Positions 56,342 through 61,855 of a DNA stretch of 64,000 nt are shown piece by piece. The position numbers and the translations under genes are program-made. Within the stretch, counting starts at the first letter, position 1. Every line of letters begins with the position of its first letter. Origin of the DNA: Vicinamibacterales bacterium (GTDB taxonomy: Bacteria; Acidobacteriota; Vicinamibacteria; Vicinamibacterales; Fen-181); contig DASXVO010000007.1 of assembly GCA_036504215.1 (NCBI GenBank), positions 1 through 64,000 of the forward strand, given 5' to 3'. The notes beneath the pieces are model-generated. The model ran no database searches and had not been told where the DNA came from. It saw only the letters and a list, made by a program, of their open reading frames with translations.

Positions 56342-56727
56342 CACTACGGCGCCTTCGGAGCTTCGTGGCCGTCCTGGCGGGGTACATCGTATTCGCCCTT
56401 CCGGCGGCCGCGTTGTTTCCGCTGCCTCAGGCCGGCCAGCACGCGTCGCAGCCACGCCCGTTTTCGAGCTTCGACATGGGCTACGGGGCGGTGCTGGCGG
56501 TGGCCGCGGGCTACCTGGCGGCACTGCTTGCCGGCCGACGCCCGCTGGCCCATGCGCGCATCGTGAGCATGATCATCGGCGCCGTCGCCCTGGCGTCGCT
56601 CGTCATCCGGCTCGGTCACGGATCGGTGTGGACCGAATTGACCGCGATCCTCATCTTTGCGCCGTTGTCGCTGGCTGGAGGCTGGCTGCGCGATCAGCAG
56701 GAACAGGCGCGCCGACGGGACACGTAG
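56338..56727 (+). CDS. small membrane protein coupled to azurin-like gene
   Basis: A 129-residue protein with about four hydrophobic segments (SFVAVLAGYIVFALPAAALF, GYGAVLAVAAGYLAALLA, IIGAVALASLVI, LTAILIFAPLSLAGGWL). The frame is open from 56284; GTG 56338 is chosen since it overlaps the azurin-like gene's stop and the first membrane helix follows. No family is recognised. It may be a membrane partner of the cupredoxin. Its 3' end overlaps metX tail-to-tail by 77 bases. Confidence 0.65.
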   Translation: MTLRRLRSFVAVLAGYIVFALPAAALFPLPQAGQHASQPRPFSSFDMGYGAVLAVAAGYLAALLAGRRPLAHARIVSMIIGAVALASLVIRLGHGSVWTELTAILIFAPLSLAGGWLRDQQEQARRRDT

Positions 56728-57844
56728 TGCCCGCGAGGAACCGCCGCACGAGAGGTTCCTGCTGGGCATGCTCGAGCAGGAAGGCATCGTGGCCGTAGTC
56801 GCTCGGAAGGCATCGATACTCGACCGGCCGGCCGGTCGCCTCCAGTGCTGCCGCCACGCGCTCGAGTTGATACGGCGGGTACAGCCAGTCGGATGAGAAC
56901 GCCAGCAGGAGGTAGCGAGCCCGGCTGCCGGCCAGCGCTTCCTCGAGCGACCCGTGGCCTTCCGACAGGTCGAAGTAGTCGATCGCCTTCGTGACGTAGA
57001 GCAGTGAATTCGCGTCGAAGCGCTGGACGAAGCTCGCGCCCTGGTGCTCCAGGTAGTGTTCCACCTCGAACTCCGGCCGACCGAGGGAATACGCCAGGCC
57101 ATTGCGGGCTCGGCGTCCGAACTTCCGCTCCATGCCGACGTCCGACAGATAGGTGATGTGGCCCACCATGCGGGCCACCGAGAGACCCGCCTCGGGCCCG
57201 GCCCCGGGTTCGTAGCGTCCACCTTGCCAGGCGGGGTCCGCCATCACCGCGCGGCGCGCGACCTCGTTGAACGCAATCTGTTGAGGCGAGTGCCGGTCGG
57301 TTGCCGCAAGGGTGATGACGCGCTGTACCCAATCAGGGTACAAGCGGGCCCACGCGAGAGCCTGCATCCCGCCCATCGATCCCCCGGCTACCGCCGCGAG
57401 CGATCGGACTCCGATCCGTTCCAGCAGCCGGTGCTGGACGCGAACCATGTCCCAAATCGTGACCATCGGGAAGTCAGGTCCAAACGGGCGCGCCGTCTCG
57501 GGGTTGACCGACGAGGGGCCAGTCGTGCCGTAGCAGCTGCCGAGGACACTCGAACTGATCACACAATAGCGGCGGGTGTCGAAGGCCCTTCCGGGGCCAA
57601 TCATCACGTCCCACCACCCAGGTCTGGCCGCGCCCTCGTGCCACCCCGCGGCGTGAGCGCCGCCGGAGAGCGCGTGGCAGACGAGGATGATGTTCGAGCG
57701 GTCGCGGTTGGGCGTCCCGTACTGCTCCCACGCGACCGTGATCGGACCGAGCCGCCGCCCGCAGTCGAGCGGCAGCCCCTCCTGACACACCGTCGTGTGC
57801 TCTGTCGTGACCAGGCCTATTCCCGCCGCATCGTGCGCGTTCAT
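56651..57844 (-). CDS. metX: homoserine O-acetyltransferase
   Basis: A 397-residue alpha/beta hydrolase-fold enzyme acetylating homoserine with acetyl-CoA for methionine synthesis. Key blocks are CHALSGGAHAAGWH, the nucleophilic Ser in GGSMGGMQALAWA, the Asp in FSSDWLYPPYQ and the His in DYGHDAFLLEH. The C-terminal 25 residues are non-conserved and overlap the small membrane protein gene. It lies 61 bases after metY, third in hom-metY-metX, and is thus placed under the tandem leader upstream of hom. Confidence 0.94.
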   Translation of the reverse strand: MNAHDAAGIGLVTTEHTTVCQEGLPLDCGRRLGPITVAWEQYGTPNRDRSNIILVCHALSGGAHAAGWHEGAARPGWWDVMIGPGRAFDTRRYCVISSSVLGSCYGTTGPSSVNPETARPFGPDFPMVTIWDMVRVQHRLLERIGVRSLAAVAGGSMGGMQALAWARLYPDWVQRVITLAATDRHSPQQIAFNEVARRAVMADPAWQGGRYEPGAGPEAGLSVARMVGHITYLSDVGMERKFGRRARNGLAYSLGRPEFEVEHYLEHQGASFVQRFDANSLLYVTKAIDYFDLSEGHGSLEEALAGSRARYLLLAFSSDWLYPPYQLERVAAALEATGRPVEYRCLPSDYGHDAFLLEHAQQEPLVRRFLAGTTCPVGAPVPADRAASLQPATTAQR

Positions 57845-57905: not shown

Positions 57906-59252
57906 CTACCCCACGAGCAACAACGGCCTCCGATCGGCCGTCGCCTTCTGCGACGCCGTGATGGCCTGATCGAGGTCGTCGAGGATGTCGGCGATGTCCT
58001 CGGTGCCGATCGACAGGCGCACGAAGTCGTCGGTCACGCCGGTTGAGGCGCGTTCCTCGGCCGACAGTTGCTGATGCGTGGTGGACGCCGGGTGGATGAT
58101 CAGGCTCTTGGCGTCGCCAATGTTCGCGAGATGGCTGAACAGCTTCACCGAGTCGATCAGTTTCACGCCCGCCTCGAGACCACCGCGGATGCCGAAGCCG
58201 ATGATGGCGCCCGCCCCGTTCGGCAAGTACCGCCTCGCGCGCTCGTAGTCGGGGTGATCGGGCAGCAGGGGATAGCTGACCCAGGACACGTGCCGGTTGC
58301 CCTTCAGCCACTCGGCGACCGCAAGCGCGTTGCGGCAGTGCGCCTTGATTCGGAGCGGGAGCGTTTCAAGTCCCTGGATGAACTGGAACGCATTGAACGG
58401 CGAGAGGCAGGGGCCGAGGTCGCGGAGCAATTGCACGCGAGCCTTGATGATGTAGGCCGCGCCGCGGAGCACCGCGCGATCGTGCAGGCCGAACGCGTCC
58501 CAGAACACCAGACCGTGATAGGAGGGGTCGGGTGCCGTGAATTCCGGGAACTTGCCGTTTGCCCAATCGAACCGGCCGGAATCGACGATGGCGCCACCAA
58601 TCGAGGTTCCGTGGCCGCCGATGAACTTGGTCAGGGAATAGACGACGATGTCGGCGCCGTGATCGAAGGGCCGGAAGATCATCGGGGACACGGTATTGTC
58701 CACGATGAATGGAACGGCGTGGTCGTGGGCGATCTTCGCGATCGCCTCGAAGTCGTCGACGTTGTTCTTCGGGTTGCCGATCGACTCGGTGTAGACGAGC
58801 CGCGTCCTGCCGTCGATGGCTCGGGCGAAGGCCGACGCGTCCGACGAATCGACGAAGCGCGTCTCGATCCCGAGTCTCGCGAATGTGTGCTTGAACAGGT
58901 TGTAAGTGCCGCCGTAGAGCGCGCTCGTCGAGACGATGTTGTCGCCGGCGCGGGCGATGTTCAGGACGGCAACCGTGATCGCCGCCTGGCCAGACGACAC
59001 CGCGAGGGCACCCACTCCGCCGTCGAGTCTTGCCAGCCGCTCCTCGAGCACAGCGGTCGTGGGGTTCGTGATTCGCGTGTAGATGTTCCCGAACTCCTTC
59101 AGCGCGAACAGGCTGGCGGCCTGCTCCGCCGATTCGAACACGTACGACGTCGTCTGGTAGATCGGAACCGCACGCGCATGGCTGGCCGCATCCGGCGTGT
59201 GGCCCGCGTGGATCGCGAGGGTCGAAGGGCGATAGCTGGTGGTGTCGGACAT
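57906..59252 (-). CDS. metY: O-acetylhomoserine sulfhydrylase/aminocarboxypropyltransferase
   Basis: A 448-residue PLP enzyme of the gamma-elimination family that converts O-acetylhomoserine and sulfide to homocysteine. The PLP lysine is in [18 protein letters not shown]; other blocks are [33 protein letters not shown] and [15 protein letters not shown]. It directly uses the MetX product. AAAGGA lies about ten bases upstream of ATG 59252. Only 25 bases separate it from hom. Confidence 0.95.
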
Positions 59253-59277: not shown

Positions 59278-60306
59278 CTATTGAACCTGCGGCCAGGCGG
59301 GCACGCCGGCCGTATGCCGTGAACGGTCGCTCTGAAGGACGTTGAGGAACGATGAGGTCGAGCGGGCGCGCGCGATGGCGAGCAAATCGGAGACGACCGC
59401 GACGGCCGTGGGATCGCCGCCGGCTCCCTGGCCGGAGAACGCCGTCTCGCCGCCCAGTTCTCCGGTGACGACCACGACGTTCTGGCAGCCCTGCGCGCGG
59501 GCGACGGGGCTGTCGAGGGGGACGACGACAGGACCCACCGAGGCGCGTACGTGCGGGCGTGCGCCATCGATGCGCTCGGCACGCGAGACCTGGCGAATCG
59601 TCCGGCCGGCAGTGCGTGCGCGGGCCAGGTCGTCGGGGGTGATGTTGGCGATCGACGCGCAATCGATCGCTTGCGGTCGGACGCGGATCTTGAAGCCGAC
59701 GGCGCAGAGGATGGCCAGCTTGGCACAAGCGTCCACACCGTCCACATCCGCGCGCGGGTCCGCTTCGGCGTACCCGCGCGCCTGCGCCTCGGCGAGGGCA
59801 TCTGCGAACGACAGGCCCGCCCCGTCCATCCGGCTGAGGATGTAGTTGCACGTGCCGTTGAGCACCGCTTCGATCTTCACCAGGCGGTCGCCGGCGAGGC
59901 CATCCTGCACGGCGCGGATGACCGGCACCCCACCGGCCACGGCCCCTTCGAACCGCAGTTGTTGGCGATAGCGCGCTGCGAGGCCGAGCAGTTCCGGCCC
60001 GCGTTCCGCCACCAGTTGCTTGTTGGCGGTGACCACGGACTTGCCGGCCCGGATGGCCTTTTCCGCCCAGGTGCAGGCCTCGACAACGCCGCCCACCAGT
60101 TCGACAACGACGTCGATGTCGCGGTCCAGGAGGGCGTCAAATCGATCCGTCCACTCGACAGAGGATGCCAACCAGCCGGGTCGCGCACGGCCGTGCCTGG
60201 TACAGACGCGTACCAGGCGGAGTCGATGACGGTGTTCGCGGGTGAGCAACCGCGCGACGGCGCTGCCGACCGTTCCGAATCCAATCAATCCAACCCTGGT
60301 TGTCAT
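59278..60306 (-). CDS. hom: homoserine dehydrogenase, short form without ACT domain
   Basis: A 342-residue enzyme reducing aspartate semialdehyde to homoserine, the branch point for Thr, Met and Ile. The Rossmann motif is VGLIGFGTVGSAVARLL; catalytic and substrate blocks are VVTANKQLVAERG, RFEGAVAGGVPVIRAVQDGLAGD, LNGTCNYILSRM and ADPRADVDGVDACAKLAIL. Most bacterial Hom proteins have about 430 residues with a C-terminal ACT domain for threonine inhibition; that is absent here. ATG 60306 has GAGGAG seven bases upstream. First structural gene after two tandem attenuator-like terminators. Confidence 0.94.
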   Translation of the reverse strand: MTTRVGLIGFGTVGSAVARLLTREHRHRLRLVRVCTRHGRARPGWLASSVEWTDRFDALLDRDIDVVVELVGGVVEACTWAEKAIRAGKSVVTANKQLVAERGPELLGLAARYRQQLRFEGAVAGGVPVIRAVQDGLAGDRLVKIEAVLNGTCNYILSRMDGAGLSFADALAEAQARGYAEADPRADVDGVDACAKLAILCAVGFKIRVRPQAIDCASIANITPDDLARARTAGRTIRQVSRAERIDGARPHVRASVGPVVVPLDSPVARAQGCQNVVVVTGELGGETAFSGQGAGGDPTAVAVVSDLLAIARARSTSSFLNVLQSDRSRHTAGVPAWPQVQ

Positions 60307-60349
60307 GGCCGTGCTCCTCGTCATCCGCCCCGCATGTCGCCCAGAAAGC

Positions 60350-60389
60350 AAAAAGGCCGTCGCCCGCGTGTGCTGCGGATGACGGCCCC
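60350..60389 (-). terminator. attenuator 2 upstream of hom (intrinsic terminator)
   Basis: On the minus strand GGCCGTC (60387-60381) pairs with GACGGCC (60361-60355), with two extending G-U pairs and an inner CCGC/GCGG stem, followed by UUUUU (60354-60350). It sits about 45 bases before the hom start. Its 5' arm contains UCAUCCGC (60382-60375), exactly complementary to GCGGAUGA (60428-60421) at the end of leader ORF 2, giving an exclusive antiterminator. Confidence 0.8.
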
Positions 60390-60420
60390 TTTGTGCTGCT
60401 TTGGTTGTGGCCCGGCTACA

Positions 60421-60486
60421 TCATCCGCCTGCACGCCTCCGCATGGACATCGCGGCCATGCTCCGCATGCGCATCGCCATACCCAT
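60421..60486 (-). CDS. Met-rich leader peptide 2 (21 aa), too short for standard gene calling
   Basis: The ORF begins MGMAMRMRSMAAMSMRRR and ends AGG, with seven Met codons in 21. Its stop codon TGA lies inside the antiterminator segment 60428-60421, so a terminating ribosome would mask it, while one stalled in the Met run would leave it free. A start at an upstream in-frame GTG (60495 or 60492) is possible; no strong ribosome binding site is seen. It lies between attenuator 1 and attenuator 2. Confidence 0.6.
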   Translation of the reverse strand: MGMAMRMRSMAAMSMRRRAGG

Positions 60487-60574
60487 CGACACCACGGCGC
60501 TCACGGCGGTCAGCCGGGCGCTCGAAGACGATGAGTCGAAGATGAAAAGGGTCACTGGAAACGATCCGTGCGCA

Positions 60575-60614
60575 CAAAACAAAACCCGCCGCTGGTTGTC
60601 CAGGTCGGCGGGTT
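60575..60614 (-). terminator. attenuator 1 in the hom leader (intrinsic terminator)
   Basis: On the minus strand AACCCGCCG (60614-60606) pairs perfectly with CGGCGGGTT (60591-60583), with an inner CTGG/CCAG stem and the tract UUUUGUUUUG (60584-60575). Its 5' arm CCCGCCGAC (60612-60604) is exactly complementary, over nine bases, to GTCGGCGGG (60671-60663) within leader ORF 1 just after the Met codons, giving an exclusive antiterminator. Confidence 0.85.
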
Positions 60615-60641
60615 CCGGTGTCGTTCGGCTGTTGGTTGGTT

Positions 60642-60728
60642 CTAGCTGCCGATCGCACACACCCCGCCGACACGCATGCCCATCGACATGGGCATTCGCA
60701 TCGACATGGTGGTGGTGCGCGGCAACAT
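60642..60728 (-). CDS. Met/Thr leader peptide 1 (28 aa), too short for standard gene calling
   Basis: The ORF begins MLPRTTTMSMRMPMSMGM and continues RVGGVCAIGS, then TAG. Seven of 28 codons are Met and three consecutive ones Thr, the two products of the homoserine branch. The Met codons 12-18 can themselves form an 8-bp hairpin (ATGCCCAT-GTCG-ATGGGCAT). Codons 20-22 (GTC GGC GGG) are the antiterminator arm for attenuator 1. The ATG lies seven bases after a -10 box, so it is probably translated from a leaderless RNA. Confidence 0.7.
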   Translation of the reverse strand: MLPRTTTMSMRMPMSMGMRVGGVCAIGS

Positions 60729-60735
60729 TGGAGGC

Positions 60736-60765
60736 AGTATACATGGGGGATCGGGAAAAGTGCAA
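60736..60765 (-). promoter_or_regulatory. putative promoter of the hom-metY-metX leader transcript
   Basis: On the minus strand TTGCAC (60765-60760) and TATACT (60741-60736) are 18 bases apart. The -10 is a good match; transcription would start about at the ATG of leader ORF 1 (60728). The -35 lies in a short repeat-like stretch (60758-60793) made of AAGGTGCTGGGTGC words, similar to the repeat at 140-239. Confidence 0.5.
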
Positions 60766-60871
60766 GGTGCTGGGTGCGAAGTGCCAGGTGCGATACTCTC
60801 GCGTATGATTGACCCGGCGACTCGATCACCGGGAGCGCCTGGACGTGCGAAGAGGCGTGGAGGAGTAGGCG

Positions 60872-61855
60872 ATGACATCGAACGACTCAGGGATCACACG
60901 ACGTCGACTTCTGACGGGCATCCTCGGGACGGCCGCCGCAGCGACGCTGGCGGGTTCGCGTGTCCAGGCGGCGCCGGCCGGCAAGATCCGAGTGGTTCGC
61001 GTCGAATCACCGAGGGTGTGGAACGGCGACAGGCGCGATCCGAAGGTCGTCGCAGCCATGCTCGAGCGCGGCATCACCGCGTTCACGGGCCAGAAGCGGG
61101 CCGACGATGCCTGGCGGCAGTACTTCAAGCCGGGCATGCGCGTGGGCCTCAAGATCAACCTGCTCGGACGCCCGCTCGTCTACACGGCGCGTGAGTTGAC
61201 CGAGGCGGTGGCGGCGGGGGCGCTCTCGGCGGGCGTGAAGCCGTCGGACATCGTCGTGTGGGATCGTCACGCGGACCATTTCGGCCCGACCGACTACAAG
61301 CCGGGCACGGGACGGCTCGGCGAGCGCATCCAGACGGGCGGCCGCTACGACCAGACGAAGGTGCTGAAGGCGTCGGGAGGCCACGCGCCGCTCGACACGA
61401 CGGTTGCCGAGACCGACGTCACCATCAACCTGCCCGTTCTGAAGGACCATGGCGGAGCGGGCGTGACGCTCGCGCTCAAGAACATCGCGTTCGGCTGCTA
61501 CAGTCATCACCGGTCGGCGCATGGCGGCAACTGCGACCCGTACATCGCGGAGGCGTACGAACACTACCTCACGCAGACCAAGGTGCCGCTGATCGTCCTC
61601 GACGCGACGAACGGCTGCTTCGACGACGGCCCGCAGCCGCGGAATCCGGATGGGATCTGGCGGGAGAATGCGATCTACATCGCGGCCGACCCGGTGGCGC
61701 TCGATGTCGTCTGCCGGCAGGTGATCCTCGACAAGCGCCGCGCGGCCGGGCTGAGCGACAAACTGCGTCAGAGCCGGCACATCGAAACCGCCGCCGAGAA
61801 GCGCCTGGGCGTTGGCGACCCGGGGAAGATCGAGCTCGTGACGATGAGGGTCTGA
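60872..61855 (+). CDS. DUF362 family protein, Tat-exported
   Basis: A 327-residue protein with a twin-arginine signal (ITRRRLLTGILGTAAAATLAG). The DUF362 domain appears in FKPGMRVGLKINLLGRPLVYT, DVTINLPVLKDHGGAGVTLALKNIAFGCYS and IAADPVALDVVCRQ. No iron-sulfur ferredoxin motif is present. GGAGGAG lies six bases upstream of ATG 60872. It is divergent from the hom leader. The biochemical role of the family is poorly known; export by Tat suggests a folded or cofactor-bearing periplasmic protein. Confidence 0.88.
   Translation: MTSNDSGITRRRLLTGILGTAAAATLAGSRVQAAPAGKIRVVRVESPRVWNGDRRDPKVVAAMLERGITAFTGQKRADDAWRQYFKPGMRVGLKINLLGRPLVYTARELTEAVAAGALSAGVKPSDIVVWDRHADHFGPTDYKPGTGRLGERIQTGGRYDQTKVLKASGGHAPLDTTVAETDVTINLPVLKDHGGAGVTLALKNIAFGCYSHHRSAHGGNCDPYIAEAYEHYLTQTKVPLIVLDATNGCFDDGPQPRNPDGIWRENAIYIAADPVALDVVCRQVILDKRRAAGLSDKLRQSRHIETAAEKRLGVGDPGKIELVTMRV

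Follow-up and report, generated by a model that had tools for sequence, protein, structure and literature searches.

The hom-metY-metX locus and its leader region

The 64,000-nucleotide stretch of DNA that was analysed (the window) carries on its minus strand the genes hom, metY, and metX, preceded by two short Met-rich open reading frames (ORFs), each with an intrinsic terminator behind it. In the direction of transcription, the order is promoter-like boxes, leader 1, terminator 1, leader 2, terminator 2, and hom-metY-metX. In both leaders, the presumed control codon, Met, matches the amino acid made by the downstream genes. The features are as follows:

60760..60765, minus strand: predicted promoter, -35 box TTGCAC, read from the sequence, with an 18-nt spacer to the -10 box
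60736..60741, minus strand: predicted promoter, -10 box TATACT, read from the sequence, ending 7 nt before the ATG at 60728
60642..60728, minus strand: leader peptide 1, MLPRTTTMSMRMPMSMGMRVGGVCAIGS, from ATG 60728 to TAG 60642; kept in the congeners G001 and G002, with homologues in family f5
60663..60671, minus strand: putative antiterminator arm 1, GTCGGCGGG, leader-1 codons 20-22; pairs with 60604-60612; GTCGGCG kept in congeners
60576..60614, minus strand: predicted intrinsic terminator 1, ACCCGCCG..CGGCGGGT followed by TTTTGTTTT; arms invariant in eight homologues
60421..60555, minus strand: leader peptide 2, probable GTG start, MTLFIFDSSSSSARLTAVSAVVSMGMAMRMRSMAAMSMRRRAGG; orthologous ORF in G001 and G002, the start being taken from their alignment
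60421..60428, minus strand: putative antiterminator arm 2, GCGGATGA, overlapping the leader-2 TGA stop; pairs with 60375-60382 (TCATCCGC); invariant in three genomes
60350..60387, minus strand: predicted intrinsic terminator 2, GGCCGTC..GACGGCC followed by TTTTT; conserved in congeners
59278..60306, minus strand: hom, homoserine dehydrogenase without an ACT domain, 342 amino acids (NCBIfam PRK06349)
57906..59252, minus strand: metY, O-acetylhomoserine sulfhydrylase (TIGR01326, above cut-off)
56651..57844, minus strand: metX, homoserine O-acetyltransferase (NF001209, above cut-off)

An earlier note on this DNA had described two Met-rich short ORFs in tandem upstream of hom-metY-metX, and both are present. 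Leader 1 comprises 28 amino acids, seven of them Met, and includes three consecutive Thr codons, as can be read directly in the sequence. The second ORF, given in the note as seven Met in 21 residues, indeed has that composition when read from its first ATG (MGMAMRMRSMAAMSMRRRAGG); the ORF and its Met count stand, but its length probably does not. GTG 60555 is preferred as the start because GTG-ACC-CTT aligns with ATG-ACG-CTC in the congeners, which would give a peptide of 44 amino acids with seven internal Met. No clear Shine-Dalgarno sequence was found before this presumed GTG; hom is preceded by GAGGAG. At the -35 position, an alignment of the congeners and the sister family f5 reads TTGACG or TTGACA, and the homologues likewise have a short distance between the -10 box and the start codon. 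The predicted transcription start is the A of the leader-1 ATG or an adjacent nucleotide; the mRNA of leader 1 is thus probably leaderless.

Since ATG reads as CAT on the opposite strand, the Met runs might be no more than the reverse complement of His-rich ORFs, the true feature lying on the plus strand, where the frames read ..THAHRHGHSHRHGGG.. and ..HGHRGHAPHAHRHTHRHHG... However, it is the minus strand that carries the T-tracts, the promoter boxes, and the neighbouring met operon, and homologous leaders retain the reading frame and the stop. Moreover, Cys codons, which do not read as His on the other strand, stand among the Met codons of related leaders. The plus-strand reading is thus almost certainly wrong. 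The His-rich plus-strand frames that mirror the Met codons (59551-60534 and 60618-60812) are an artefact of the antisense strand that may be picked up by automatic annotation.

Predicted folding and ribosome masking

The anatomy of a leader-peptide attenuator (a short ORF, control codons, an intrinsic terminator, and a competing arm behind the control codons) is present throughout, the competing arm being clear for leader 1 and weaker for leader 2. Naked leader 1 RNA is predicted to form a long hairpin spanning the ORF, together with the terminator; leader 1 with its terminator folds far better than shuffled sequences (z = -6.3; 0 of 200 shuffles fold as well), and the duplex between arm and terminator exceeds that in dinucleotide shuffles (p = 0.009). 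When a ribosome is modelled as a mask on the RNA, placed at each codon in turn, the antiterminator is available with the ribosome at M8-M14 and blocked once it has moved beyond the last Met codons. With the ribosome at the stop codon, the arm remains partly free (0.8), so termination would rely on the leader hairpin re-forming after ribosome release, a step that does the same work in classical attenuators.

In leader 2, the antiterminator is available with the ribosome at M24-M38 and again blocked beyond the last Met codons. Because the arm here overlaps the stop codon, it would be masked directly by a ribosome completing the leader, and in the masking folds it is masked fully (0.0). Taking both leaders together, the antiterminator is freed by stalls at most of the Met codons and blocked by a ribosome that has passed the last of them. 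Stalls at many of the early non-Met codons free the arm as well; specificity in this model is set by which codons are slow.

Leader 1 is judged the firmer attenuator of the two. The fold of leader 2 is only 1.5 SD better than shuffles (z = -1.5), its arms do poorly in the global test (p = 0.06 and 0.35), it has no promoter-like boxes of its own, and related families carry a single leader. Together with the GTG start lacking a Shine-Dalgarno sequence, these features would fit a locus in which leader 1 alone is a working Met attenuator, leader 2 and its terminator being decayed or used differently, for example, as a translational or Rho-related leader. Against this, three genomes have kept leader 2 together with its terminator and its competing arm of 8 bp, and six of the seven Met codons of the leader are retained in G001; such a division of roles is considered unlikely. 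The preferred reading is that both leaders are attenuators, and the best account of their origin is a tandem duplication of the attenuator in this genus.

Rarity and conservation within the genus

A scan of the whole genome (5.92 Mb) for the Met pattern ATGNNNATGNNNATGNNNATG (MxMxMxM codons, ATGN3ATGN3ATGN3ATG) gave only three sites, and these leaders account for two of them; the reversed control pattern has no match in the same genome. The Met runs are therefore not attributable to chance. Two congeners, G001 and G002, with hom 66-71% identical, were compared with the window. Both carry the two ORFs, arms, and terminators in tandem, with frame and stop kept, and share the gene order: a divergent gene (60872-61855 in the window), the leaders, hom, metY, metX, and proline dehydrogenase. 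The leader-1 arm GTCGGCG and the leader-2 arm are invariant in the three genomes, as are their terminator partners. A comparison of the window with G001 shows 12 of 13 Met codons retained but only 8 of the 17 codons between them (hand count; Fisher p = 0.017). The earlier note had held that its proposal would fall if close relatives lacked such ORFs; the congeners bear it out.

The same note had pointed to threonine, which, like methionine, is an end product of the hom branch. Threonine could be sensed alone or jointly with methionine: leader 1 has its row of three Thr codons, and other families of the order have Thr-rich leaders in front of hom-thrC, asd, lysC, or thrB. However, just one of the three Thr codons is retained in the congeners, in place of the conserved Thr/Ile control codons of a thrL-type leader; the ACC run is itself a pairing partner of the antiterminator arm; and the operon is hom-metY-metX, with a Hom that lacks the ACT domain. 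The threonine idea thus finds no support here, and a role of this kind is very unlikely.

Homologous leaders in family f5 and across the order

Homologues were sought by metY-anchored searches and with a covariance model. In the sister family f5, single homologous Met leaders stand upstream of asd-lysC-hom-metY-metX or metY:

G010: Met leader MATRFLSPRPATMSMPMMAMRMTSIGGRIVSGP, before the asd-lysC-hom-met operon
G032: Met leader MARPTDSTPAAAMRMMAMRMTGIGGGAVSGP, before the asd-lysC-hom-met operon
G041: Met leader MPARLHTTPAAAMRMMAMRMTSIGGGAVAGP, before the asd-lysC-hom-met operon
G022: Met leader MATRLGFPRPAMMVMRMLVMRMTSVGGRIVSGL, directly before metY

In all the homologues, TTGACA-type and TA-rich boxes lie shortly upstream of the start codon, the Met run is followed by GTCGGYGGG-type codons, and the terminators have the form ACCCGCCG..CGGCGGGT. 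In the wider family, the arms vary with compensation (e.g., CUCGUCGG with CCGACGAG in G012), and their complementarity, including compensating changes, exceeds that of mononucleotide shuffles (p = 1e-7). Degenerate homologues with only two internal Met codons each, in G050 and in G005 (a member of the window's own family), count against the Met reading.

Other families yielded weaker covariance-model matches, with the same scaffold, upstream of asd, lysC, thrB, or lysine/arginine genes. Order-wide, the scaffold, recognisable by ..VGGVC.. and a CCCGCCG terminator, was seen at L202, L203, L204, L205, L207, L212, L214, L216, and L219, where it carries Thr, Lys/Arg, Ile, or Cys codons instead. These sequences suggest that related operons use a single, re-codable attenuator scaffold, with Thr/Lys codons in some and Met codons in others. 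Further matches were taken as chance: L223, at the end of a chaperonin-like gene, and weak ones such as L215 and L217. Thr-rich short ORFs (e.g., MTQTRGTTATMMTPTVVMSITTTATPMRARHCRMM) were also observed before hom-thrC at L008, L010, L011, and L012 and are likely threonine attenuators in Acidobacteriota-like genomes.

In 162 genomes of the order, most matches to the pattern MxMxMxMxM outside this genus are Met-rich proteins or simple repeats; searches anchored on metY, hom, and asd performed better. A survey of hom upstream regions found no Met leader in most of the order because hom lies inside larger operons or in hom-thrC.

Met/Cys leaders elsewhere in the phylum

The covariance model was run on 396 genomes of the phylum, to which the survey was confined. 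It found a Met/Cys leader, MKILLCIAMCMCMRPMRGRERVG, before metY-metX in G475. In another family of the phylum, the same model detected a His leader, MQIRTHHRHAHHHHVTNVSADSSGL, before hisG (L224), which serves as a positive control. When about 85 metY upstream regions were scanned, 17 Met/Cys-rich ORFs were found on the forward strand versus 3 in the reverse-strand control. In families f24, f46, f55, and f83, metY is preceded by Met/Cys leaders that have terminators and arms, and an uncultured Holophagales metagenome-assembled genome has ..IRIMSMPMCMPSAHAG.. before metY. Four leaders exemplify the arrangement:

G509: Met/Cys-rich leader MAMCMCMACGPVRVALEQRMR, before metY, with terminator and complementary arm
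G401: Met/Cys-rich leader MAMCICMCICGRGLWVPSRERSN, before metY, with terminator and complementary arm
G450: Met/Cys-rich leader MNFSIQSMYVSMRMPMCIRGRLALDFESA, before metY, with terminator and complementary arm
G501: Met/Cys-rich leader MTNATLPTMAMIMRMSMRKLWVRSLAERST, before metY, with terminator and complementary arm

The Met/Cys leaders of other families are independent of those in the window and follow the same logic. Across eleven leaders chosen as independent, complementarity between leader and terminator goes beyond that of dinucleotide shuffles (combined p = 8e-9), although it is not significant singly for L254, L260, G050, and leader 2 of G001.

At L273 and L299, a second Met-rich ORF (MTMGTTIRMRMW.. 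and MRMRMREQ.., respectively) with a strong Shine-Dalgarno sequence lies after the attenuator, between the terminator and metY, and overlaps the metY start out of frame; this arrangement might provide translational Met control.

Riboswitches, T-boxes, and the ACT domain

Methionine operons are usually controlled by metabolite-binding riboswitches or T-boxes, and in family f38 of the same phylum SAM-I riboswitches precede metY. Such an element might control the operon in the window as well, the ORFs being incidental. However, the leader region has no Rfam match at gathering score, T-box models included, and matches only at chance level at a relaxed threshold; nor was a SAM-I riboswitch found in the window's genome. 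This explanation is extremely unlikely. Among 60 relatives, SAM-I was above cut-off in none of the nine f1/f5 genomes with Met leaders versus 17 of the 51 others (Fisher p = 0.05). The loci at which SAM-I precedes metY instead of a leader peptide belong mostly to f38 (L255, L267, L270-L272, L275, L277, L279, L280, L283, L289, and L293).

The ACT domain carries threonine feedback. In Pfam searches, neither the Hom of the window nor that of G001 matched PF01842 (ACT), which is present in the Hom of a hom-thrC locus (L005). The Hom proteins of hom-thrC relatives are about 105 residues longer at the C-terminus; that of G032 has a C-terminal extension with no detectable ACT match. The loss of the ACT domain suggests that control here may have shifted from protein to RNA.

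Proposed mechanism

The ORFs, terminators, competing arms, promoter-like boxes, their conservation, and the re-use of the design in relatives are read in the sequence. They make it very likely that hom-metY-metX is controlled by a genuine, conserved pair of methionine-sensing attenuators, arranged in series and of the classical ribosome-mediated transcriptional type. Translation of the leaders, ribosome stalling, the direction of the response, and multiplicative action are what we infer from that basis.

A single strong promoter would yield an mRNA starting at or next to the leader-1 AUG, and sensing would presumably occur via charged elongator tRNA-Met. When methionine is ample, the ribosome would clear the Met codons and cover or refold the arm, terminator 1 would form, and transcription would stop. 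When Met-tRNA is scarce, the ribosome would stall on the Met codons and break the leader hairpin; the arm GUCGGCGGG would thereby be freed to pair with the 5' arm of the terminator, and RNA polymerase would read on. Polymerase that has passed terminator 1 would face the same decision at leader 2, a serial layout from which staged or multiplicative control would follow.

Methionine starts every peptide; thus, severe starvation should reduce initiation too. Because naked leader 1 is predicted to terminate, extreme starvation that left the leader untranslated would switch the operon off. Unlike leader 1 of the window, several leaders of families f24, f5, and f55 are predicted to antiterminate when untranslated.

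Significance and comparison with known systems

Leader-peptide attenuation is textbook biology, but to our knowledge methionine is missing from the usual list of amino acids it senses. This absence is perhaps due to the role of methionine in initiation, since starvation would affect both initiation and elongation. A conserved and repeatedly evolved Met leader makes it possible to ask directly whether the charging of elongator tRNA-Met can be read while the cell still initiates. We regard it as probable that these leaders form an undescribed, phylum-wide class of Met (and Met/Cys) leader attenuators that is used where SAM riboswitches are absent, has evolved more than once, has in common with aspartate-family leaders of the Thr/Lys type a scaffold that can be re-coded, and was doubled in one genus into a serial switch acting on an ACT-less Hom. 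The class illustrates how one scaffold can change its control codons, and it suggests a move of control from the ACT domain to RNA.

The attenuators trpL, hisL, thrL, leuL, ilvL, and pheL are alike in having a leader ORF with control codons, a protector hairpin, an antiterminator, an intrinsic terminator, and a biosynthetic operon. The present case differs from them in its control codon, Met (Met plus Cys in relatives), in the probably leaderless leader 1, in the tandem arrangement of two attenuators, and in its probable phylum, Acidobacteriota, to which the best named relatives of hom point. The mechanism is known and its methionine specificity apparently new, the Met version being apparently undescribed. 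The earlier note knew of no Met-codon attenuator, and a search of the open-licence literature agrees: it gave no clear precedent for methionine leader peptides, the nearest being a weak proposal for 'metL' of Streptomyces lividans, a leaderless short ORF before metNIQ put forward as an attenuator (PMC8079986). Like leader 1, metL is a leaderless short ORF preceding methionine genes; however, its peptide (MSTTSDRTPATEATTTPGARCMCRRMCAF) has two internal Met, no typical terminator was reported, and the genes controlled are for uptake (PMC8079986). In mycobacteria, leader ORFs with cysteine codons precede sulfur-metabolism genes (PMC1262725, PMC4633059). They resemble the present leaders as short ORFs with codons for a sulfur amino acid but use Cys rather than Met, and no conserved intrinsic terminator was reported for them (PMC1262725, PMC4633059). 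For the Actinobacteria, one survey reported that no RNA element is conserved at methionine operons (PMC1262725). Finally, the SAM-I riboswitch (RF00162) controls the same genes and, in family f38 within this phylum, lies upstream of metY; its aptamer senses SAM, whereas in the leaders described here the ribosome would sense the charging of Met-tRNA.
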